Below, one piece after another: positions 612 to 11,274 of a DNA stretch of 64,000 nt. Origin of the DNA: Natrinema salsiterrestre (GTDB lineage: Archaea; Halobacteriota; Halobacteria; Halobacteriales; Natrialbaceae); contig NZ_JAMQOT010000001.1 of assembly GCF_029502005.1 (NCBI RefSeq), positions 744,001-808,000 of the forward strand, in the 5' to 3' direction. Position 1 is the stretch's first letter. Every line of letters starts with the position of its first letter. The notes under the pieces are model-generated. The model saw nothing but the letters and a program-made list of their open reading frames with translations, did not search any database and was not told the origin of the DNA. The position numbers were made by a program, and so were the translations under genes.

Positions 612-1880
612 ATGTCAGAGCCAACAGCCGGAGACGAACTCGCCGGCCGATACGAGATTCGAGAACAGCTCGGGAGGGGCGGCTTCGGCGTCGTGTGGGC
701 CGCAACCGACACCGACACGGGACAGTCGGTCGCACTGAAACACCCCAACTACGACGGGAACGCGCCGGACGACCTCGTCGACAAGTACTTCGAGCGAGAG
801 CGGGACGTCCTCGAGGACATCCGCGACGCGGGCGGCCACCCGAACATCATGGGGTACTACCGGACGGAACGCGGGTTCGGAATGCCGGTCCTCGTCATCG
901 AGGCGATCGACGGCGAGGAGCTCGGGACCGTCGTCAAGAACGACGATCCCATCGCCGACGACGACGAGGTCCGCGAGATCGGCATCGGGATCTGCGACGC
1001 GCTCTCCTTCCTCCACGATCACGACCTCATCTACCGTGACCTCAAGCCGGACAACATCATGATCAACGGGACCAGGAACCCGAAGATCATCGACTTCACC
1101 ACGGCCAAGGGGTTCGTCCCCGAACGCGGCGGCGCCGAGTTCACGACGGAGAGCGCCGCGAGTTCCGCGGCGGGGGAGTCGAACGCGGACTCGACCGTCC
1201 CGGGGGAGTTCAAACCGCCGGAACTGAATCAGGGGTCGGAACAGCGCCAGGGCCCCTGGAGCGACGTCTACTCCATCGGGAAGATCCTGTGTTACCTCAA
1301 GGTCGGCTGGGTCCCCGACGACGACGGCGTCGCCCCCTCGGACTTTGGCATCGAGACGGCGCCGTACATGGACGAGATCATCCGACTCTCCACCCAGCAC
1401 GATACCGTCGACCGATATCCGAACGCGTCCGTGCTCAAGCGATCCCTCGAGAAGCGCGACGCGACGATGCCGGCGCAGGCGTCGGTCCACTGGCTCGGCC
1501 GCGACGAGCGGTGGACGATCAGTCCGGGCGACACCATCGGCAGGGTGACCCCCGACGGACCCCGGCCCTCGATCATGCTCGAGGACGACCGACACAAGGC
1601 CCTCTCGGCCGTGCACTGTCGGTTCGACACCGACGAGGAGGGGAACTGGCGTGTGATCGACACCAGTCTCAACGGCACCTACATCAGCAAACACGATGAA
1701 CAGGAGTGGCACCTCCTGCTGTCGGAGGCCGGACAGGAGCGCCAGCGACGCCACGGCGAGTCGGTTCCCGACGACCTCGAGGCGTCGACGTCGCTCGAGG
1801 GCGGCGACACCATCGCGCTGGTCAGTCCGTCCTACCCCGAGCGGTTCTACTTCCAGTTCGATCACCAACCCGTGGAATGA
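612..1880 (+). CDS. Ser/Thr protein kinase with C-terminal FHA domain
   Basis: Hanks-type kinase of 422 residues. The glycine loop is GRGGFG (21-26), the ATP lysine lies in VALK (K43), and the catalytic loop is YRDLKPDN (141-148, D143). The metal-binding DFG is changed to DFT (161-163) but keeps its Asp. No membrane segment is visible, so it should be cytoplasmic. An FHA-like domain spans about 300-420: GR at 310-311, a SxxH pair near 332-335 and NGT at 354-356, then an unusual insertion of about 35 residues before the last strands. The stop codon overlaps the start of the PP2C gene (ATGA), so the kinase and phosphatase are translationally coupled. It probably phosphorylates threonines read by the FHA domains of this cluster. 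Confidence 0.9.
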   Translation: MSEPTAGDELAGRYEIREQLGRGGFGVVWAATDTDTGQSVALKHPNYDGNAPDDLVDKYFERERDVLEDIRDAGGHPNIMGYYRTERGFGMPVLVIEAIDGEELGTVVKNDDPIADDDEVREIGIGICDALSFLHDHDLIYRDLKPDNIMINGTRNPKIIDFTTAKGFVPERGGAEFTTESAASSAAGESNADSTVPGEFKPPELNQGSEQRQGPWSDVYSIGKILCYLKVGWVPDDDGVAPSDFGIETAPYMDEIIRLSTQHDTVDRYPNASVLKRSLEKRDATMPAQASVHWLGRDERWTISPGDTIGRVTPDGPRPSIMLEDDRHKALSAVHCRFDTDEEGNWRVIDTSLNGTYISKHDEQEWHLLLSEAGQERQRRHGESVPDDLEASTSLEGGDTIALVSPSYPERFYFQFDHQPVE

Positions 1881-3559
1881 CTATGGAACACGCGAGCACT
1901 ATCGATATCGGCGCGCGGAAGCAACGACGCGACGGAATCAACGAGGACGGGATCGCGACGGCGGTCTTCGAGAACCAACACCGGCAGACGGAACGGCCGG
2001 TCGGGATCTTCGTCCTCGGCGACGGGGTCGGCGGCGAGGACTGCGGCGACGTCGCCGCCTTCTTAGCGACGACCGTCGTCAGGAAGTGGCTCACGGACGC
2101 CCTCCTCGGTCCCGGAACGGACGTCCCGGAACGGTTCGGCATCGATTCCTACGACCCGACGCCGCCGACGGCCGACGCCGACCCGAACGGGGCCGTCTCC
2201 GAAGGGAAGATCAAAACCGCGATCCAGGAGGGGATCGACGCCGCCCACCAGCACATCCAGGAGTTCGCCCAGAGCATCGGCGGCCGACCGGCGACGACGC
2301 TCGTCGTGGGCGTCTACGTCGACGGCCACCTCCACTACGGCTGGGTCGGCGACAGCCGGATCTACGTCATCAACGAGCGCCACGGGGAGACGAAACAGCT
2401 CACACGGGATCACGCCGTCACGAACGACCTGCTCGAGAAGGGGGAGATCGACGACGAGGTGTACGCCCGCATCCACCCCGACGCGACGGCGATCACGAAC
2501 GTCGTCGGCGGCTCCGCGCACGGCCAGCCGAGCGTCGACGTCGAGTTCGGCTCCACCGAGATCTACCGCGACGACATCATCCTGTTTACGAGCGACGGCC
2601 TGGTCGACGCGTTCCCGGACAACCGCTCGCTTCGGGAGACGTACCAGCAGGCGACGGACATGGACGCCGCTCGCGAAGAGATCCGCGAGTCGCTGGTCAC
2701 GGACGACGAGATTCGAGATATCGTCCTCGGGGCCGACGATCTCCGGGAGGGAGTCGAGCAGCTCGTCTCGTTCGCCAACGACCGCGGCGGCAAGGACAAC
2801 CTCTCCCTGACGCTTGCCAGGGACCGAGGGACGACGCCGTCGCCGGACTCGCCGCCGCTTCGCGGCGCGGCCACCGACACTCGTGAGCTGACGAATCAGG
2901 AGACGATCATCGATCCGCCCGAGGGGGCCGCCGAGTCCGGGTCGGCGACCGACTCCGGCGATAGCGGCGGGACCACGCGAGCCGGCAGCGAGGCGAACGC
3001 CTCGTCCGGCGGCTCGAGCCGATCGTCAGGGGACGGTGGAACGGCGAAGGTGGTTTCGGCCGGCGAGGGCGACCCGCCGACGGCCGCGGTCACGATCGCG
3101 GGCGACGAGACCATCTTCGAGATCGTCGACGGCGTCACCATCGGCCGGACGACGGAGGGGGGCGATGGGAGCCCGAACATCGGTCTGGTCGTCGACGACG
3201 ACGCGTCCGTCGAACCCCACCACGTCCGGCTGGAGTGCGACGACGACGGCTACTGGCAGGTCCGCGATATCAGCGCCGTCGGGACGTTCGTGGAGACCGG
3301 CGACGGGACGTGGACGGTGTTGCTCTCGAGCGAGGGAGCCGATCTGCACCGGGAGCACGGGTTCGACCCGAGCGCCGCCGCCGACGGCGACCTCGAGGAG
3401 ACGACCCGGCTGGAAGAGGGAATGGCGTTCACGTTCGAGGATCCGCGGAAGGAGGACCCGATCACGTTTCGCTTCTTCTCGTCGGTCGATCACGCCCAGA
3501 ACCGGACGCGCTGGAGCGACTCGACCGACGGGAGGCCCTTCAATGGGTTCTCCACGTAG
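1877..3559 (+). CDS. PP2C-type protein phosphatase with C-terminal FHA domain
   Basis: About 560 residues. I start it at the ATG of the ATGA overlap with the kinase; a second ATG lies two codons on. PP2C motifs appear in order: RDGINEDG (18-25), a GDGVGG metal-site loop (about 48-53), GDSRIY, TSDGLVD and GGKDN near 300. A linker rich in Ser, Gly and Asp follows, then an FHA-like domain (about 405-535) with GR, an altered SxxH (EPHH) and VGT, carrying the same kind of insertion as the neighbouring kinases. It should dephosphorylate substrates of the flanking kinases. The enzyme class is clear; the in-cassette substrate is inferred from coupling. Confidence 0.9.
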   Translation: MTMEHASTIDIGARKQRRDGINEDGIATAVFENQHRQTERPVGIFVLGDGVGGEDCGDVAAFLATTVVRKWLTDALLGPGTDVPERFGIDSYDPTPPTADADPNGAVSEGKIKTAIQEGIDAAHQHIQEFAQSIGGRPATTLVVGVYVDGHLHYGWVGDSRIYVINERHGETKQLTRDHAVTNDLLEKGEIDDEVYARIHPDATAITNVVGGSAHGQPSVDVEFGSTEIYRDDIILFTSDGLVDAFPDNRSLRETYQQATDMDAAREEIRESLVTDDEIRDIVLGADDLREGVEQLVSFANDRGGKDNLSLTLARDRGTTPSPDSPPLRGAATDTRELTNQETIIDPPEGAAESGSATDSGDSGGTTRAGSEANASSGGSSRSSGDGGTAKVVSAGEGDPPTAAVTIAGDETIFEIVDGVTIGRTTEGGDGSPNIGLVVDDDASVEPHHVRLECDDDGYWQVRDISAVGTFVETGDGTWTVLLSSEGADLHREHGFDPSAAADGDLEETTRLEEGMAFTFEDPRKEDPITFRFFSSVDHAQNRTRWSDSTDGRPFNGFST

Positions 3560-3643
3560 TCGCGCGATCGGTCCCGCGTCCGCGACCGTCGAAACGGGCA
3601 GTCGCCGCGAGCGGCCAGCGATCCGGCACCGGAGCGAAGCGCG

Positions 3644-4864
3644 ATGACGGACGGCGAGCGGACGGGGACGATCGTCGACGATCGGTTCCGTCTCGAGGAG
3701 CGACTCGCCGCCGGCGGTCTCGGGACGGTCTGGCGCGCGACCGACCGCGAGCGAGAGATCCAGGTCGCACTCAAGTGCGAGAACGACGGCTCGCACGACC
3801 CGGAGCAGGTTCGGGCGCACTTCCGGGGGGAGCTCCAGTGGTTCCGCCGGTTCGAGGGGGGACCGGTTCCCGGATCGCTCGTGCAGTTCGTCGACGGTGC
3901 GGTCGACGGGGACACGGTGTACATCGCGACGGAACTGATTCGGGGCGGCTCGGTCGACGACGTCGTGGACCGCGAGACGGATCCGGAATCCGCCCTCGAG
4001 CGCGTTCGCGAACTCGGCGGTCCGGTCTGCCAGGCGCTCGAGTTCCTCCACCGGAACGGCGTCGCGCATCTCGACGTGACGCCGAGTAACGCGCTCGTTC
4101 GCCGGTCCGGCCAGCCCGCGGTGATCGATCTGAACGCCGCGGTGTCGATCGAGGCAGAACCCGACGTCCGCTTCGGTCGCGACTCGTTCAAACCGCCCGA
4201 ACAGACGCGAACGGACGGTCGCAAGGACCCGATCGGCCCGTGGTCCGACGTGTACGCCATCGGGCGGTTTCTCGCCGTTTTGGTGACCGGAACGGCGAAC
4301 GCGGAGGCGGATTCGAACGAGGGCCGGGAGCCCGTCGATCTCCGGTCTCGCGGCGTGAATTGCCCGGCGGCTCTCAGCGACCCGATCCGTCGCGCGACCG
4401 CACCCGACTACCGCGACCGGTTCGACGACGCCGGCGGCCTCTACGACGCGCTCGTCCCGTTCTTCGAGGTCCCGGATCGAGCCGCCGAGTTGGTCCACGA
4501 GCCGTCCGGATGCGCCGTTCGCGTTCGTCCCGGGGACACCCTCGGCCGCTGGGCGGCGGACCGACGGACGCCGACCGTCGTGTTCCCGGACGACGAGCGA
4601 TACCTCTGTCCCGAACACGCCGCCCTCGAGTGCGACGAGGAGGGCTGGCAGCTTCGAGACCGGAGTCTCAACGGGACCTTCGTTCGGCGAGAGGGGCCGT
4701 GGGAGTACGTGCTCTCTCGAGAGGGCCGGGAGCGCCGGCGCGACGCCGACGCACCCCTTCCGCGCCCCGATCCGCCGGCGTCGGTCCGGCTGGCCGACGG
4801 CGATCGGATCTCGCCGGTCTCGCCCGACTACGGCTGTCACGTCGTGTTTCGCTCCGAGGACTGA
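3644..4864 (+). CDS. Divergent protein kinase with C-terminal FHA domain
   Basis: Protein of 406 residues with the same layout as the first kinase: a kinase fold (about 12-270) then an FHA-like domain (about 285-405). The glycine loop is AAGGLG and the ATP lysine is in VALK (about residue 43). The catalytic loop reads HLDVTPSN (about 140-147): Asp and Asn are kept but the usual Lys is Thr. DFG is replaced by DLN. It may be a weak kinase or a pseudokinase that still binds nucleotide. The FHA part has SLNGTFV and the cluster-specific insertion beginning with WEYVLSREG. It lies 84 bp after the PP2C gene on the same strand. Confidence 0.8.
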   Translation: MTDGERTGTIVDDRFRLEERLAAGGLGTVWRATDREREIQVALKCENDGSHDPEQVRAHFRGELQWFRRFEGGPVPGSLVQFVDGAVDGDTVYIATELIRGGSVDDVVDRETDPESALERVRELGGPVCQALEFLHRNGVAHLDVTPSNALVRRSGQPAVIDLNAAVSIEAEPDVRFGRDSFKPPEQTRTDGRKDPIGPWSDVYAIGRFLAVLVTGTANAEADSNEGREPVDLRSRGVNCPAALSDPIRRATAPDYRDRFDDAGGLYDALVPFFEVPDRAAELVHEPSGCAVRVRPGDTLGRWAADRRTPTVVFPDDERYLCPEHAALECDEEGWQLRDRSLNGTFVRREGPWEYVLSREGRERRRDADAPLPRPDPPASVRLADGDRISPVSPDYGCHVVFRSED

Positions 4865-4908: not shown

Positions 4909-6465
4909 TCAGTCGTCCCCGGTCGAGTCGCTCGCGGTCGCTCCGCCGGGCTCACTCGCAGTCGCTTCGTCGGGGTTCGATCCGTTCTCGGACCGAGACT
5001 CCCAGCCGAGCGGCGCGGGCTCGAGGAGGTCTTCTTCCCGTAACCCGGCGAGTCCGAGCAGGTCGTCGTCGTCGATTTCGACGGCAGAGTCCGACTCCGA
5101 CATGGCCCCCGAATCGGGAGCCGGCGCTTCGTTCGGATCGACCTGCGAGGTGGCCGCCAAGTCGGCAGATGAGGCTTCGTCCGGGTCGGTAGCCGACGCT
5201 GCCGTCGAGTCGGTCGTCGCCGCCCGTTCGTCGGTCACTGGTGGGGTGTCGGACGCGTCGGAGAGTGCCGGCCGGTCGCTCCCGCTCTCGACGATCGGTT
5301 CGCCGTCAGTTACCGACGACTGGGGGCTATCGTCGGCAAACGAAATTCGATCGTCGGCAGCCTCGGCCGCCGGCGGTTTCGCCGGCGGTTCGAAGACCGA
5401 GACCATCCCGTCGCCGCGAACGACGTACAGGTCCCGCTCCGGATCGAAGACGATCGCCGATCCGACGTCGATCCCGAATTCGGCCAGCGCCGACAGCGTC
5501 TCGAGTTCCCCTCGCGGCCCCTCGAGCGCGGCGTCGGGCAGCCGCATGGTCGTGATCACCCCCTCGAACTCGGCGCGGTCGTCACGGTACGCGAGCCACT
5601 CCCGCTCGGCGGTCGTCGGGGTCGGAACGCGCCGAGAGACGTATCCGAGTCCGGCGAGTCCGCCGATGCCGAGGACGACCAGCAGCGGCCCGCCGACGCT
5701 CCGAATCGGACTGACCGAGGCGGGGACGGTTTCGGTCTCGTACTCCTCGTGCGTCTCGTCGTAGGACTCCCCGTCCTCGATTTCATACGTTCCGCTATCG
5801 GCATCGATCGTGAGCCGATAGCTGTCCGCCGTCGATCGCCGTTCGCCGGCGATGGTGCCGTCGATCTCTCGCTCGAGGACGAGTTCGATCTCCGTGTCGC
5901 CACGGCTGGCCTCGAGGTCGGACTCGATCTCGTCGACTCGGGCCGTGATCTCGCTGACGTTGACCGAGAACGCGGCGGTGACGTTCTCTCCCGGTTGCAC
6001 GTTCGCTTCGCGGGTCGACGCCAGTCGTTCGCGCTCGCTCCAGTGGGTGGTGTTGTCGGACCCGACGGAGCGATACACGAGATCGACGGTGAGCCCGACC
6101 TGAACGTCGTCGCTCGTTCGCGCGTCGTACCCCGCGACGAACTCCCCGTCGACCGTCGGGCTGATGGCCGTGTAGTAGAGCGGGTCATTCTCGAGGCGCG
6201 TCCCCTCGTCGTAGATCGTGTTCGGTTCGGTGACCGTAGCCGCGTGGGAGACGTCCCCCGTCGCGGTCCAGGCCGTCGTCCGTTGCCGCGACGTCTCTTC
6301 GCCCGGCGTCGCGTAGGCGCCGTAACTGACCCATCCACCCAGTGCCACCAGCACGACGAGGGCGACGATGATCGCCGTCCGATACTCCGCCAACAGAACG
6401 CGGGAGCGCAGTCGGCGCTCGTCGTCCACCGTGCCGGCGTCCGTCTCGGTCAGACGTCCACTCAT
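4909..6465 (-). CDS. DUF5305 family membrane protein
   Basis: 518 residues, started at the ATG giving MSGRLTE, because upstream codons in this frame lie inside the signal peptidase gene. One membrane helix lies near 30-52 and a second near 250-275. Between them is a beta-rich domain of about 200 residues that would face outside. A soluble segment and a long acidic low-complexity tail (rich in Ala, Asp, Ser, Thr) follow. DUF5305 is a haloarchaeal family that, as far as I know, often sits beside signal peptidase I; its function is not established. It starts 2 nt after the end of the peptidase gene, so the two are co-transcribed. I infer a role in the export or assembly of the DUF1102 proteins. 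Confidence 0.75.
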   Translation of the reverse strand: MSGRLTETDAGTVDDERRLRSRVLLAEYRTAIIVALVVLVALGGWVSYGAYATPGEETSRQRTTAWTATGDVSHAATVTEPNTIYDEGTRLENDPLYYTAISPTVDGEFVAGYDARTSDDVQVGLTVDLVYRSVGSDNTTHWSERERLASTREANVQPGENVTAAFSVNVSEITARVDEIESDLEASRGDTEIELVLEREIDGTIAGERRSTADSYRLTIDADSGTYEIEDGESYDETHEEYETETVPASVSPIRSVGGPLLVVLGIGGLAGLGYVSRRVPTPTTAEREWLAYRDDRAEFEGVITTMRLPDAALEGPRGELETLSALAEFGIDVGSAIVFDPERDLYVVRGDGMVSVFEPPAKPPAAEAADDRISFADDSPQSSVTDGEPIVESGSDRPALSDASDTPPVTDERAATTDSTAASATDPDEASSADLAATSQVDPNEAPAPDSGAMSESDSAVEIDDDDLLGLAGLREEDLLEPAPLGWESRSENGSNPDEATASEPGGATASDSTGDD

Positions 6466-6467
6466 TC

Positions 6468-7631
6468 TCAGTAGAGCCTCCGAATGATCGATCGCACAGT
6501 CGACCGCCGACTGCGGGCGGCCAGTCGTCTCGAGCGAGCGTCCCCCGGCCCGGCGAGTACCCGGCCGAGACCGTAGGTACCACCGCCGAGCAACGAGAGG
6601 ATGGCGACGAACGGCACCCACGGGTGGAGGTCGTAGAGGGCGTCGAGAACCGGTGCCGGAAGCACGTACAGGTAGCGATACTCGGTGATGTACGTCGGGA
6701 AGTAGCCGGTCTCGTCGGGCGTCGTAATCGAGACCGTGACCGCCGTCTCGTCCCGTGGACCGACTGTCGCCCGATCCGGTGTGACCGTCACGTCGTCGGC
6801 GCCGGATTCGACGTAGGAGACCGTCGGAACGAAGCCGCCGTTCGAGACCGTATACGGGATCTCGTCGGTCGTTCCCCGTTCGATCACGAGCGGTTGCTCC
6901 GACTCGAACTCCGCGCTGATCACGTCGTAGGACTGCGTCCCCGCCGGCGCGATCATCGCCGCCCCTCCCGCGGAGACGACCAGCAGCGCGAACCCGGCCG
7001 AGAGCACTCGCGGATCGATTCCGTCGCCGCCGTCGTCTCTCCCGAGGCGCGATTCGAACGACGTCGATCGCCGTTCGCGGACCGTCTCGGCGACGTAGAG
7101 GACGCTCGAGAGGGCGAGCAGTACCGCCGCCAGGCCCGAGTTTCCGAGGAGGTTCCGCGTTCCGAACGTAGCTGCCAGCGTCGTCTGAACACCACGGAAC
7201 GCGTCGCTCACCGACATGACGGCCGTCCCGAAGTGAGGGATCGTCACGACCGCGCCGTTGACTCGCCACGCGGTCGCGACGATCTGAGCGTCCTGTACGT
7301 GGGGCTCGTCGCCGTCCTGATCGGTAAACGGGTTCGCGTCCCCGCGCGTGACGTACCCGCGAGGCGTCTCTTCGACGATACGGTGCGTCGTCAGTCCGCC
7401 GCCCTGGATTTCCGTGGCCTCGAACACGATGACGTCGCCCGGCTCCGGTTCGCCGCTCACTTCGCTCGGAACGGCGATGAATCCGTCACCCGTGTCGATC
7501 GTCGGTTCCATACTCCCCGTTTCGACGAAACTGAGCAGTATCGGCTGTCCGAGCAGTTGCCCCGCGACCAGCGCGAGAACGGTAACGAGGACGAGCCCTC
7601 GCAGTGTCCATCCGACCCCCCGACGAATCAT
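6468..7631 (-). CDS. sec11: Signal peptidase I, archaeal Sec11 type
   Basis: 387 residues. An N-terminal membrane helix (about 8-30) is followed by the nucleophile box GSMEPT with Ser40, a TTHRIV box with His83 and a RGDAN box with Asp98. This is the Ser-His-Asp arrangement of archaeal and eukaryotic signal peptidases rather than the bacterial Ser-Lys pair. It is much longer than a minimal Sec11: a further hydrophobic segment near 185-205, an extracytoplasmic beta-rich domain (about 210-330) and a C-terminal helix follow. Placement with two DUF1102 precursors and DUF5305 suggests a dedicated, SipW-like enzyme. It has its own promoter region and does not share the DUF1102 start. Confidence 0.9.
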   Translation of the reverse strand: MIRRGVGWTLRGLVLVTVLALVAGQLLGQPILLSFVETGSMEPTIDTGDGFIAVPSEVSGEPEPGDVIVFEATEIQGGGLTTHRIVEETPRGYVTRGDANPFTDQDGDEPHVQDAQIVATAWRVNGAVVTIPHFGTAVMSVSDAFRGVQTTLAATFGTRNLLGNSGLAAVLLALSSVLYVAETVRERRSTSFESRLGRDDGGDGIDPRVLSAGFALLVVSAGGAAMIAPAGTQSYDVISAEFESEQPLVIERGTTDEIPYTVSNGGFVPTVSYVESGADDVTVTPDRATVGPRDETAVTVSITTPDETGYFPTYITEYRYLYVLPAPVLDALYDLHPWVPFVAILSLLGGGTYGLGRVLAGPGDARSRRLAARSRRSTVRSIIRRLY

Positions 7632-7659
7632 TTTTCCACTAGATCAACGAGATAAACTC

Positions 7660-7702
7660 ACATATAAATATGTATCCATAAGAGTTTGGTTAATTATACC
7701 AA
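7660..7702 (-). promoter_or_regulatory. Putative promoter and operator of the sec11-DUF5305 unit
   Basis: An AT-rich island in otherwise GC-rich DNA, 29-71 bp upstream of the signal peptidase start. It holds ACATAT-AA-ATATGT (7660-7673), which includes a TATA-like box at the expected distance, and a second inverted repeat TTGGT-N7-ACCAA (7686-7702) just upstream that could be an operator. This supports separate transcription of sec11-DUF5305. Confidence 0.5.
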
Positions 7703-7880
7703 TAGCACTTTCGACGGGAGCGTCCCGGCTAACAGGATGCGAAGCGTGCGTCCTGTACGCCACGTTCGGTGCTCGAGACGCTCGTCGAGGACGGAGTCCG
7801 GTAACGTGAGGTGATCGGCTTCCTCCGAGAACCGATCCCCGAAGGGGTTCGATCCGTCGACGGCCCCGTAGTGGGTGTGG

Positions 7881-8006
7881 TTAGCTGTTGAAGAGCCGTT
7901 CGAGCTCCGCGTTGATCGCGTCCCGATCCAGTTCCTCGCTGTCGAGGTCGAAATCGACGTCCGCGACCGCTTCGTAGTCGCCGAGTGTCGGTGTGTCGTT
8001 CGTCAT
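7881..8006 (-). CDS. 41-residue acidic peptide in the DUF1102 operon
   Basis: A small ORF starting 2 nt after the stop of the DUF1102 gene, with a clear ATG and a TAA stop. The product MTNDTPTLGDYEAVADVDFD and onwards is acidic, with no signal peptide, membrane segment or cysteine, and a likely C-terminal helix (DRDAINAELERLF). The tight spacing argues for real, coupled translation. I do not recognise a family. It could be a cytoplasmic partner or chaperone of the secreted protein encoded just before it. Confidence 0.55.
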   Translation of the reverse strand: MTNDTPTLGDYEAVADVDFDLDSEELDRDAINAELERLFNS

Positions 8007-8008
8007 TG

Positions 8009-8608
8009 TCAGAGTTCCTCCGCAGTGATTTCGATTTCGTCGCTGATCTCGACCGAGTCCACCGCGCTTTCGGGGATCGCAAAGGCCGCCAGGCTGAAGT
8101 CGATCTCGTCGCCGGGCGAGAGCTCCGAGAGGGAGATGAGGTTCACCGGCGGAGTCCACGACATGTCGTAATCGAGCGCCACGCCGCCGATCTGTGGCAC
8201 CAGAAGGACGCCGAGAACGCCGTCGAAGTTAGCGAAGTCAGCGTCGGCGAACGCCAGCGGCGCGACCTCGAGTTGAACCTCCTGCGTGCCCTGGTTCTGG
8301 ATCTTGAACAGGTCCGCGATCCCGGTCACGGCGTTGGCGTTCAACCCTTCGCCGCCGGCGAGACCGGAGCCGATGTTGTCGTTGTCGCCGGTCAGATTGA
8401 TCGCGAGTGCGTCGCTGTCCGTCGTATCGACGTAGTTGCCGTTCGGTCCGTCGCCGGGTTCGATGCCGAGGTACGCGCTGGAGTCGTCGGAGACCGCGAC
8501 GCCGACGTCTCGCTCGGCCTCGACGGTACTGAACGCCCCGGTTCCCAGGGCGATGCCACCGCTCGCGGCGAGCGCGCCGGCACTGAGTACGAATTTTCGT
8601 CGTTCCAT
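8009..8608 (-). CDS. DUF1102 secreted protein, copy 2
   Basis: 199 residues. It begins MERRKFVLSAGALAASGG: a twin-arginine plus hydrophobic signal ending at GTGAFSTVEA, then ERDVGV. The mature part is a beta-rich domain with conserved DUF1102 pieces: AYLGIEPG near 45, an NxGTQEV strand near 110 and PGDEIDFSL in the C-terminal half. The signal resembles the SipW-cognate class (G[TS]GAFS). It is paralogous to the gene 15 bp upstream and belongs to the same operon as the 41-residue peptide. Known relatives are haloarchaeal surface proteins of unknown function; a TasA/camelysin-like filament subunit is a plausible inference. Confidence 0.8.
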   Translation of the reverse strand: MERRKFVLSAGALAASGGIALGTGAFSTVEAERDVGVAVSDDSSAYLGIEPGDGPNGNYVDTTDSDALAINLTGDNDNIGSGLAGGEGLNANAVTGIADLFKIQNQGTQEVQLEVAPLAFADADFANFDGVLGVLLVPQIGGVALDYDMSWTPPVNLISLSELSPGDEIDFSLAAFAIPESAVDSVEISDEIEITAEEL

Positions 8609-8623
8609 ATCGTTCTACTCCGT

Positions 8624-9163
8624 TTAGTTCGCCGTCGCGCTGACGGTCACCGAGTCGAGCAGCTCGTCGCCGTCGCCGAGCCCGCTGCCTTCCGTGTCGA
8701 CCTCGACGCTGACGGTCGTGCTATCGCCGGGACCTAACGTGACGGGACTGGTCGCCAGCGAATCGCCGTCGTAGGCCTCGCCGTCGGGGTAGAACGAGAC
8801 GCGGCTCGCGTTGTCGCCCGTCTTGGAGAGATCGACGTCGACCTCCTGAGTCCCCTGGTTTTCGATGACGAACAGCCCGTCGATCTCCGTGATCGCGTCC
8901 GGGTTGACGCCGTCACCGCCCGCGTCGGTGGGGTTGTTCGAGCTGAGGTCGATCGTCAGCGTCCCGCCGTTTCCGTCGCCCGTCACGTACTCCGAGTTCG
9001 CGCCACCCGCGCCTTCGAGGCGCAGGTAGGCTGAAGCGTCGTCGGCGACTTCGACGTCGACGTCTCGCGACGCGGTCACGCTCGAGAACGCGCCCGATCC
9101 GACGGCCGCAGCAGTTCCCGATGCCAGTGCTCCCATTCCGATAACGAATTTGCGTCGTTGCAT
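8624..9163 (-). CDS. DUF1102 secreted protein, copy 1
   Basis: 179 residues, first gene of the operon. Signal region MQRRKFVIGMGALASGTAAA to GSGAFSSVTA, with a twin arginine; the mature part opens with SRDVDVEVADDASAYLRLEG. The central strand ENQGTQEVDVDL matches KIQNQGTQEVQLEV of the downstream paralogue, showing recent common ancestry. LGPGDSTTVSVEVD is the usual C-terminal strand pair. There are no cysteines and no C-terminal anchor, so the protein should be released or polymerised after cleavage. Sec11, encoded about 1 kb downstream on the same strand, is the likely processing enzyme. Confidence 0.8.
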   Translation of the reverse strand: MQRRKFVIGMGALASGTAAAVGSGAFSSVTASRDVDVEVADDASAYLRLEGAGGANSEYVTGDGNGGTLTIDLSSNNPTDAGGDGVNPDAITEIDGLFVIENQGTQEVDVDLSKTGDNASRVSFYPDGEAYDGDSLATSPVTLGPGDSTTVSVEVDTEGSGLGDGDELLDSVTVSATAN

Positions 9164-9662
9164 GGTTGGATTCTCCGTTGTGTCGCTCGCGGGCGATCAC
9201 ACGGCCGCGTTCGGACGGCGGCTCGGCGCTCGCCCCGATCCCCGCTGCGGGGATCACGAGAGATCCGTGACCGGGACGGGGTATTGTAATACAGACGTGG
9301 ACTCGAGTCCGTGAGACGTTACCGTCGGGTCAACCGATCGCGTACCGAACGGGCGACGGCGTATCGGATCGGTTGACCGCTGTCGGTGCGGAACAGTCAA
9401 CCGGAGACGTCGGTACAACCGCCGTTGACTCGCGGTCAACCGACTCGAGACCGAGACCCGACCGTCGTCTGCGAACAGTTGACTACCAGTCAACGGCAGT
9501 CTGAGCCGATATTTTCGTGTCAATTTGCTAATACTGTCGATCAACAGCGCGATAACGACCCATCGTTCCGAGCAGGAATACGGCACTTCGAAGTGTAATT
9601 TTAATTTAAGATATGAAAGTAACCAATAGACTTATTTGCGAAAGTGTGGAGGTAGCAATCGA
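9164..9662. promoter_or_regulatory. Divergent control region of the DUF1102 operon
   Basis: 499 bp without a gene between the leftward DUF1102 operon and the rightward winged-helix gene. The middle (9329-9494) carries at least seven GTTGAC/GTCAAC-type half-sites. The right part is AT-rich (9590-9632) and holds a TATA-like TTTTAATTTAA about 55-65 bp before the regulator start. A palindromic GTATT-GT-AATAC lies at about 9281-9292, roughly 120 bp before the DUF1102 start. The array is placed to control both directions. Confidence 0.6.
9329..9494. repeat. Array of GTTGAC/GTCAAC operator-like half-sites
   Basis: Half-sites at 9329-9334, 9372-9377, 9396-9401, 9424-9429, 9435-9440, 9478-9483 and 9489-9494. 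Two pairs form perfect 17-bp palindromes, GTTGAC-N5-GTCAAC, at 9424-9440 and 9478-9494. Their starts are 54 bp apart, about five helical turns, so both would face the same side of the DNA. A weaker GTACAAC lies at 9413-9419. The geometry suits a dimeric helix-turn-helix protein; the adjacent DUF7344 regulator is the natural candidate, but this is inference. Confidence 0.65.
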
Positions 9663-10283
9663 ATGGGGGTCAGCCAAGCGGAACCATCTGGGGAGATCGA
9701 CGTATCGCAGCCCGACCGGGAGCGGTTGACCGAAGACGAACTCTTCGAGCTCCTGGCGAACCAGCGACGGCGACACATCATGCACACGCTCATGCGCGAG
9801 GACGCGCGGCTCGATATCGGCGACCTCTCACAGGAGATCGCCGCATGGGAGGACGGGCTCGCCTTCGAGGACGTTTCGAGCACCGATCGGAAGCGGGTCT
9901 ACACTGCCCTCCAGCAGTCCCACCTCCCGAAAATGGACAAAGCGGGCGTCGTCGAGTTCGATCGCGACCGGGGAACGATCGAGCCGACGCCGGCACTGGA
10001 AGACGTGGAGATCTACATGGACGTCGTCCGCGGCCGCGAGATTCCCTGGAGCGACTACTACCTCGGGTTGACGGCGCTGTCCGGACTGTTGTTCGTCACG
10101 TCGACGCTCGACCTGCTGCCGTTCAGCCAGCTCCCCGCGGCCGCGTGGGGCGTCTTCGTCATCGTCACGTTCGCCGTCTCCGCGCTCGCACACCGGTACT
10201 ACGCCAGACGGAACCGACTCGGGATCACGGAGCAGCCCCCGAGCGTGGAGCTCGAGTACCGGGATCGGCCGACGGACGAGTGA
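9663..10283 (+). CDS. DUF7344 winged-helix protein with two membrane helices
   Basis: 206 residues from the ATG giving MGVSQAEPS. A GGAGG lies 11 nt upstream, so I prefer it to an in-frame TTG nine codons earlier. About residues 25-115 form the winged-helix domain DUF7344, with LFELLANQRRRHIMHTL and KRVYTALQQSHLPKMD. Two hydrophobic helices follow near 133-150 and 155-172, then a basic-acidic tail. This haloarchaeal family pairs a DNA-binding domain with membrane anchoring. It lies divergent from the DUF1102 operon across the palindrome array, so local regulation of that operon is likely. Direct binding is not shown. Confidence 0.75.
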   Translation: MGVSQAEPSGEIDVSQPDRERLTEDELFELLANQRRRHIMHTLMREDARLDIGDLSQEIAAWEDGLAFEDVSSTDRKRVYTALQQSHLPKMDKAGVVEFDRDRGTIEPTPALEDVEIYMDVVRGREIPWSDYYLGLTALSGLLFVTSTLDLLPFSQLPAAAWGVFVIVTFAVSALAHRYYARRNRLGITEQPPSVELEYRDRPTDE

Positions 10284-10350
10284 TCGAACGACAGTACGAC
10301 GGCTCCGGTCGGGCCCCGTCACGGCCCCCACGACACCAGAGACAACACGA

Positions 10351-11274
10351 ATGAAACGGACGAGACGCGCTGCACTGGCGATGATTACGGGCTCGAGTGG
10401 CGTCCTCGCGATCGAGACGATGGGGTTCTCGACGGCGGAGCTCGAGCGAGACGCACAGGTTCGGACCGCCGGCGATGCGAACGCCTATCTCGGGCTGACT
10501 GCGGACGGCGTCGAGGAGGGCGGGGTGTTGTTCGAGGGAGATCCTCGGCGGCCGCCCACCGCGTTCGACGTCATAAATCAGCTCACGGAACCGATCGCGG
10601 TCACGCTCACGGTCGAGCACTTCCGGTTCCGGTCGGCCGACGGCGACCCCGTTTCCGACGACCGGGTGATCCGTCGCGAGAGCGCGAACGAGCGGCTGGG
10701 TCCCGGCGAACGAATCGCCGACGTTACCGTCGGACTGGATCCGGAACGCGACGGAGCGGGCGGCGAAACCGTCACGGGAACGATCGGGATCGAGGCTACG
10801 GGTGACGAGACGACGGTCGAGGCCGAACGCGAACTCGCCCTCGAGCGACCCGAGATCGCGGTCGACTCGGCTCGGCTCGAGCTGACCCAGACCGGCGGCG
10901 GCGTCTTCGAACACGTGTGGTCACTCTCCTCGGTCGATACCGACGGGGCCCCACTCGAGCGGCTCCGGTTCGACTACGGTCGCATCGAGACGACCCGCGC
11001 GCTCGACTTCACCGGCGCGGACGGGCTGTCGGCGTCGGTCGCGATCGACGGCAGTGAGCACGCGGCGACGATCGATCGGCGAACGCCCGAGACGCTCGAG
11101 ATCGCGCTCGAGTCGCCGGTCCCGATCGATCACGGCACGGTCGAAATCGTCCTGAGAAACACCGGGCCGCCCGCGAGTCCCGGCGGCGGAAATAGATCGC
11201 CGAGCGGTGCCGTCCTCGAACTCGAGTGTGGCGGAGCCAGCACTCGCGTCGAGGGCGTCTGGCGTCGTCCGTAG
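10351..11274 (+). CDS. Secreted SipW-signal-type protein
   Basis: 307 residues. It starts MKRTRRAALAMITGSSGVLA and continues to GFSTAELERDAQVR, a signal segment laid out like that of the DUF1102 proteins (GFSTAELERD versus AFSTVEAERD). ANAYLGLTADG corresponds to their AYLxL strand. The rest (about 60-300) is beta-rich, with no cysteine until a single one near 295 and no C-terminal anchor. It lies 67 bp after the winged-helix regulator on the same strand, so it is probably in one transcription unit with it. It looks like a larger, diverged accessory subunit of the DUF1102 cassette, perhaps a cap or anchor; that role is speculative. Confidence 0.6.
   Translation: MKRTRRAALAMITGSSGVLAIETMGFSTAELERDAQVRTAGDANAYLGLTADGVEEGGVLFEGDPRRPPTAFDVINQLTEPIAVTLTVEHFRFRSADGDPVSDDRVIRRESANERLGPGERIADVTVGLDPERDGAGGETVTGTIGIEATGDETTVEAERELALERPEIAVDSARLELTQTGGGVFEHVWSLSSVDTDGAPLERLRFDYGRIETTRALDFTGADGLSASVAIDGSEHAATIDRRTPETLEIALESPVPIDHGTVEIVLRNTGPPASPGGGNRSPSGAVLELECGGASTRVEGVWRRP

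Follow-up and report, generated by a model that had tools for sequence, protein, structure and literature searches.

A contiguous set of genes at positions 4909-11274 of the window analysed here, a 64,000-nucleotide stretch of the Natrinema salsiterrestre contig NZ_JAMQOT010000001.1 to which all plain coordinates refer, very probably forms an assembly cassette dedicated to a Tafi-like pilus. Sequence analysis shows homology to the pilin of PDB entry 9P0A, gene linkage, intact catalytic residues in a signal peptidase, and conservation of a peptide, operators and a promoter element. The minus strand carries, in order, taf2, taf1, an open reading frame of 41 residues, the gene for a large signal peptidase (Sec11L) and a DUF5305 gene; the divergent plus strand carries genes for a DUF7344 protein and a TafC-like secreted protein. 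A preliminary description of this DNA had reported these genes as contiguous, and every one was found in the order claimed. It had also proposed a surface fibre with its own processing and control. That proposal is supported by the homology to 9P0A, the fold matches and the linkage to Sec11L, from which we infer that this locus makes a fibre.

The two pilin-like subunits are encoded by taf2 (8624-9163, minus strand) and taf1 (8009-8608, minus strand), the latter with a twin-arginine signal peptide and a GTGAFS site. Both had been described as paralogous DUF1102 proteins. The paralogy is borne out by alignment, and membership in Pfam DUF1102 (PF06510) holds for Taf2 alone (34.3 bits against a cut-off of 22.2); Taf1 has no Pfam match and stays below the DUF1102 cut-off. 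The 9P0A pilin is matched by Taf2 (E = 2e-9) and by Taf1 (E = 1.3e-12), a profile built from 40 relatives finds it in the PDB at E = 5.8e-35, and it is the sole solved structure matched by these two proteins. This entry, released on 2025-07-23, is titled 'Natrinema sp. J7-2 Tafi pilus'. In NCBIfam 2026, proteins related to those secreted from the cassette carry the names TafE, TafA and TafC, as fimbrial proteins. Taf1 matches the TafE model at E = 7.5e-19, under its cut-off, and the scores of the window proteins are 66-68 bits for TafE (cut-off 155) and 37-46 bits for TafA (cut-off 190). The third secreted protein (10351-11274, plus strand, 307 residues), a candidate tip or adapter, matches the TafC model NF052521 with 49 bits (E = 4e-13; cut-off 410).

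The structure of Taf2 was predicted with AlphaFold (AF2; mean predicted local distance difference test score, pLDDT, 79; predicted template modelling score, pTM, 0.70) and compared with the PDB by Foldseek. Donor-strand pilins dominate the top matches: FimA (5LP9) is first, Pyrobaculum AbpA (7UEG) is at rank 4, and the first eight also include the Sulfolobus 0406 filament and 9P0A. Other beta-sandwich proteins appear further down the list. With E-values from 3e-4 to 1e-2, these matches agree with a donor-strand pilin identity but are not strong. The fold comparison suggested by the preliminary description thus places mostly donor-strand pilins on top, the Pyrobaculum one included, with modest scores and with TasA outside the top 50.

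The signal peptides and the residues that follow them were compared in a set of 73 Taf proteins, selected by RR or RK and by a G..[GA][AS][FLYW] site. An RRxx[ILVMF] twin-arginine signal is present in 72 of the 73, and GA[F] stands at the site in nearly all of them; both features were part of the selection. The positions after the F played no part in it and are therefore informative: A is found at +5 in 68/73, R at +7 in 72/73, and V or I is conserved at +9, +11 and +13. This alternating pattern from +5 to +13 suggests a strand-like N-terminus of the mature protein. The 9P0A sequence is 215 residues long, of which 188 are modelled; if the 27 others are the part removed, the mature protein would begin at this F of GTGAF, with cleavage before F28. 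The TafC-like protein had been credited with a similar signal. Its site reads TMGFS instead of GTGAFS, and the motif downstream of it is the same one.

Sec11L (6468-7631, minus strand, 387 residues) is an endoplasmic reticulum (ER)/archaeal-type signal peptidase that passes TIGR02228 (54.3 bits; cut-off 51.85) and matches the SipW model at E = 4e-8. A collection of 55 loci was assembled from 52 fetched with the Sec11 of the window and the three of this genome, and the catalytic residues S40, H83, D98 and D104 are present in 55/55 of these homologues. A C-terminal extension holds additional transmembrane helices and, by eye, a probable extracytoplasmic beta domain. Two smaller signal peptidase matches lie elsewhere in the genome (contig C24), so that the cassette enzymes are extra copies. 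A promoter of its own, as had been claimed for sec11, is plausible, with an AT-rich stretch and a TTTATA-like box at 7632-7720 (minus strand); similar AT-rich stretches are present upstream in L034, L036 and L031 and not in L029. Reversed cassettes, in which DUF5305 precedes Sec11 and DUF7344 follows, were seen in L074, L075, L076, L079, L070 and L073, with Sec11 reading frames of 513-744 residues. In Natrialba-type cassettes, proteins of 560 residues immediately precede Sec11L (L040:8173-9867, L042:560-2263, L044:8170-9867); the one in L040 has no NCBIfam match.

The arrangement of the cassette genes is far beyond chance. Among the 55 loci, which were selected by Sec11, DUF5305 occurs in 53, Taf-like proteins in 46 and DUF7344 in 46, and the usual order is TafC-like and DUF7344 on one strand and, divergently, Taf, Taf, Sec11L and DUF5305. 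An independent survey covered 146 genomes of the order, drawn without selection; DUF5305 was found in 91, Sec11L in 91 and Taf-like genes in 89. For 94 of the 118 DUF5305 genes the distance to Sec11L is at most 3 kb (0.26 expected by random placement), and for 104 it is at most 10 kb. Likewise, of the 150 best-scoring Taf/DUF1102 genes, 103 have Sec11L within 10 kb, the neighbourhood that the preliminary description had asked about. In the N. salsiterrestre genome, an orphan Taf-like secreted protein (G000:C26:131708-131872; L019:9300-9872) has no signal peptidase nearby.

A search of this whole genome found three DUF5305 genes and three large Sec11 genes, always paired, and thus three paralogous cassettes: that of the window, L017 (C11:979-986k) and L018 (C20:667-670k). 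L017 encodes a TafA above the cut-off together with TafE-, TafF- and TafC-like proteins. In a Sec11L tree the three cassettes fall in separate clades, and L017 groups with the Natrinema ejinorense locus L065 (100/98). The pilin encoded in L065 is closely homologous to that of 9P0A (E = 8e-87) and itself scores as TafE-like; after its gene come a TafF-like gene, Sec11L and DUF5305. This gene order ties the Sec11L-DUF5305 pair to the Tafi pilus class. Judged from these sequence comparisons, the window cassette is a separate, divergent paralogue and not the TafA-type one. Beside the TafA-type cassette (L017:10076-18045; C11:986-994k), there are genes for a small GAFDS protein and for two acidic secreted proteins of very great length (1027 and 1336 residues), possibly adhesins of that pilus.

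The 41-residue protein (7881-8006, minus strand) is acidic and lacks a transmembrane helix or signal. Its gene starts 2 nt past the taf1 stop, with the ribosome-binding sequence within the end of taf1, and orthologues of nearly the same length occupy the same position in ten other related loci. The pairwise ratio of nonsynonymous to synonymous substitution rates (dN/dS, by NG86) is about 0.1-0.5 with a median of about 0.16, rough values for so short a gene, and dS is often near or above 1. By these ratios the peptide listed in the preliminary description is a real protein under purifying selection. It mainly accompanies Taf1-type orthologues. That it is a common part of all Taf cassettes was considered and rejected because the 146 genomes gave only four clear cases and one marginal case, the latter in an orthologous cassette. 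A part in precursor handling or assembly is our guess.

The DUF5305 protein (4909-6465, minus strand, about 518 residues) matches PF17231 at E = 6e-56 (189.6 bits; cut-off 29), and its start codon lies 2 nt past the sec11 stop. Its predicted layout is a transmembrane helix (residues 31-49), a large extracytoplasmic beta-sandwich, a second transmembrane helix (256-274), a cytosolic alpha/beta domain and an acidic tail. Residues 1-375 were modelled with AF2 (pLDDT 88), and the model has two N-terminal helices, the large beta-sandwich, a long transmembrane helix and the small cytosolic alpha/beta domain.

The intergenic region of 499 bp that separates taf2 from the DUF7344 gene (9164-9662) contains seven copies of GTTGAC/GTCAAC, where 0.24 are expected. 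Four of them form two perfect 17-bp palindromes, GTTGAC-N5-GTCAAC, at 9424-9440 and 9478-9494, 54 nt apart; the other half-sites are GTCAAC at 9329-9334 and 9396-9401 and GTTGAC at 9372-9377. The two perfect palindromes are the only ones in the genome of 4.79 Mb. The collected loci (1.07 Mb) contain six, each of them upstream of a Taf gene at a distance of no more than 600 nt. When up to two mismatches are allowed, 20 homologous intergenic regions yield 26 where 0.29 would be expected, a count from related and not independent sequences. The palindrome is absent upstream of the other two cassettes of the genome (L017 and L018). An operator common to all three was rejected as a candidate, the near-match at position 5967 of L018 falling inside the coding sequence of a divergent secreted gene. 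A 19-bp palindrome, GTTCA-N9-TGAAC, occurs four times upstream of Taf genes and once elsewhere. The four are in L065 and L067 (Tafi-type), L050 and L070, which are other cassette types, and may be a related operator with different spacing.

A promoter-like element, GTATTACAATACCC (9279-9292, minus strand; also given as GTATTACAATAYCC and GTATTACAATA), lies 129 nt before the taf2 ATG. The core of GTATTACAATAYCC is invariant in 15 relatives, and the genome holds one match even when one mismatch is allowed. The leader also contains an inverted repeat, GATCCCCGC/GCGGGGATC (9237-9255, minus strand), which is present in most relatives. Its hairpin is strong in the window (z -2.6); a general shared structural signal was discarded, as z averages only -1.0 over 24 leaders. 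The DUF7344 gene (9663-10283, plus strand; PF24035, E = 5e-29) encodes a winged-helix protein with two C-terminal transmembrane helices, a candidate regulator, and in the 46 loci that have it, it is usually divergent to the pilin operon. From position and symmetry, this protein may bind the GTTGAC-N5-GTCAAC palindromes.

From these components the following mechanism is proposed. Taf2, Taf1 and the TafC-like protein would leave the cell by way of twin-arginine-type signal peptides; the linked Sec11L would cut these, the cleavage point in GTGA|FS probably falling between A and F. The N-terminus of the mature protein, F-S-S-V-x-A-x-R-x-V-x-V-x-V, would serve as a donor strand completing the incomplete beta-sandwich of a neighbouring subunit, so that polymerisation would need no motor. 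The main subunit is probably Taf2, as taf2 is the first gene of the operon, and Taf1 and the TafC-like protein may be adapters or a tip. DUF5305 could serve assembly as a base or chaperone that is anchored in the membrane and coupled to Sec11L, and the 41-residue protein may have its targets in the cytosol, either precursors or the tail of DUF5305. Control of the operon would fall to the divergently encoded DUF7344 protein, acting through the palindromic operators.

Among known systems the Tafi pilus (9P0A; NCBIfam TafA, TafC, TafE and TafF) is the nearest. The subunits are homologous, the RR...GTGAFS...R signal and the strand motif are common to both, and the locus of its close homologue, L065, has the same Sec11L-DUF5305 neighbours. 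In contrast to that pilus, the window cassette lacks a TafA or TafF gene, its proteins score under the TafA/TafC/TafE cut-offs, and it has a pair of subunits, the 41-residue protein, a TafC-like gene together with DUF7344, and a 17-bp type of operator. FimA, the top fold match of Taf2, represents chaperone-usher pilins, which share the donor-strand fold but are assembled by unrelated machinery. To our knowledge, this group of archaea lacks an outer membrane. No PapD-like chaperone or usher gene was recognised in the cassette, where no search aimed at them was made. AbpA of Pyrobaculum calidifontis belongs to a distant lineage and is matched in fold, not in sequence. TasA of Bacillus has an N-terminal donor strand, and AbpA is cited as TasA-like (PMC9674648); a Phe adjoins the TasA cleavage site, which is served by the dedicated SipW (PMC10269814). 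The window cassette shares with TasA/camelysin an ER-type signal peptidase dedicated to the operon and, in the mechanism proposed here, would also share the Phe at the cleavage site and the donor-strand principle. However, no window protein matches TasA or the Pfam M73 family at E <= 1, the signal is of the twin-arginine type, and DUF5305 and the DUF7344 regulator stand where Bacillus has TapA and SinR. The link to TasA would thus be one of principle, and through AbpA.

Several observations weigh against the pilus cassette. No member of the window exceeds the NCBIfam TafA, TafC or TafE cut-offs, though the scores are significant, and the proteins are accordingly called Tafi-like, not Taf equivalogs. 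The N-terminal 30 residues of the Taf2 model are poorly defined (low confidence), its archaeal pilin matches are modest (TM-scores 0.34-0.52, E 3e-4 to 1e-2), and TasA is absent from its top 50 PDB matches. Twin-arginine (Tat) signals would imply export in the folded state, which is unusual for donor-strand pilins, the bacterial ones being Sec-exported. In the 146 genomes, 41 of the 150 best Taf genes have no Sec11L or DUF5305 within 20 kb. DUF5305 has no convincing Foldseek match in the PDB, and a profile search against the PDB was empty. It is quite improbable, on balance, that the Taf-like proteins are surface adhesins or envelope proteins, monomeric or in short oligomers, which keep the pilin fold without polymerising and are merely processed by Sec11L. 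Filament formation is here a deduction, the scores are under the Taf cut-offs, and orphan genes such as that on C26 exist outside cassettes, all of which would fit such proteins; yet these proteins have the conserved N-terminal strand motif of the solved pilus, and the 9P0A homologue in L065 has the same operon neighbours.

That the genes encode adapter or tip subunits for the TafA-type pilus, whose cassette lies 230 kb away, with no filament of their own, is unlikely, if somewhat less so. A TafA-type cassette is indeed present in the same genome, and Taf1 and Taf2 are closer to TafE, annotated as an adapter, than to TafA. But TafE-likeness does not mean an adapter, as the 9P0A homologue also scores TafE-like; moreover, Sec11L, DUF5305, a regulator and operators are all included in the window cassette itself, and the cassettes belong to different Sec11L clades. 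Within the pilus cassette, DUF5305 might be an accessory signal peptidase subunit like SPC22/23 rather than an assembly factor, in keeping with its adjoining Sec11L almost everywhere and its probable translational coupling. We regard this as rather doubtful: it has a second transmembrane helix and a cytosolic domain, SPC22/23 structures are absent from its top 50 fold matches, and those are scattered beta-sandwich proteins (arrestin, Kir, AF_0446, TMEM106B) with TM-scores of at most 0.20 of the query, which leaves the SPC22/23 assignment unsupported.

More tentatively, the window cassette and its relatives may represent a separate haloarchaeal class of donor-strand pili, in which Sec11L with its fused extracellular domain and DUF5305 form a processing-assembly platform, the 41-residue cytosolic protein handles Tat-exported precursors, and a private operator and promoter for each cassette allow three fibres to be controlled apart. 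This kind of pilus has been known since 2025, from the PDB entry and the NCBIfam names; no relevant paper on Taf, Tafi, DUF1102 or DUF5305 was found in the open PMC literature, and the window subtype, the 41-residue protein and the control sites appear undescribed in the searchable literature. The cassette links two families of unknown function (DUF1102 and DUF5305) and an unnoticed small protein to a haloarchaeal pilus class that is widespread, with components in about 60% of the 146 genomes. It raises the questions of how donor-strand pili are assembled without chaperone-usher machinery, whether their subunits pass folded through Tat, and how paralogous fibres are controlled separately in each cell.

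Immediately upstream of the end of the cassette, at 1706-4864, a PP2C-like phosphatase with an FHA-like region and a kinase-like protein were recognised by eye.

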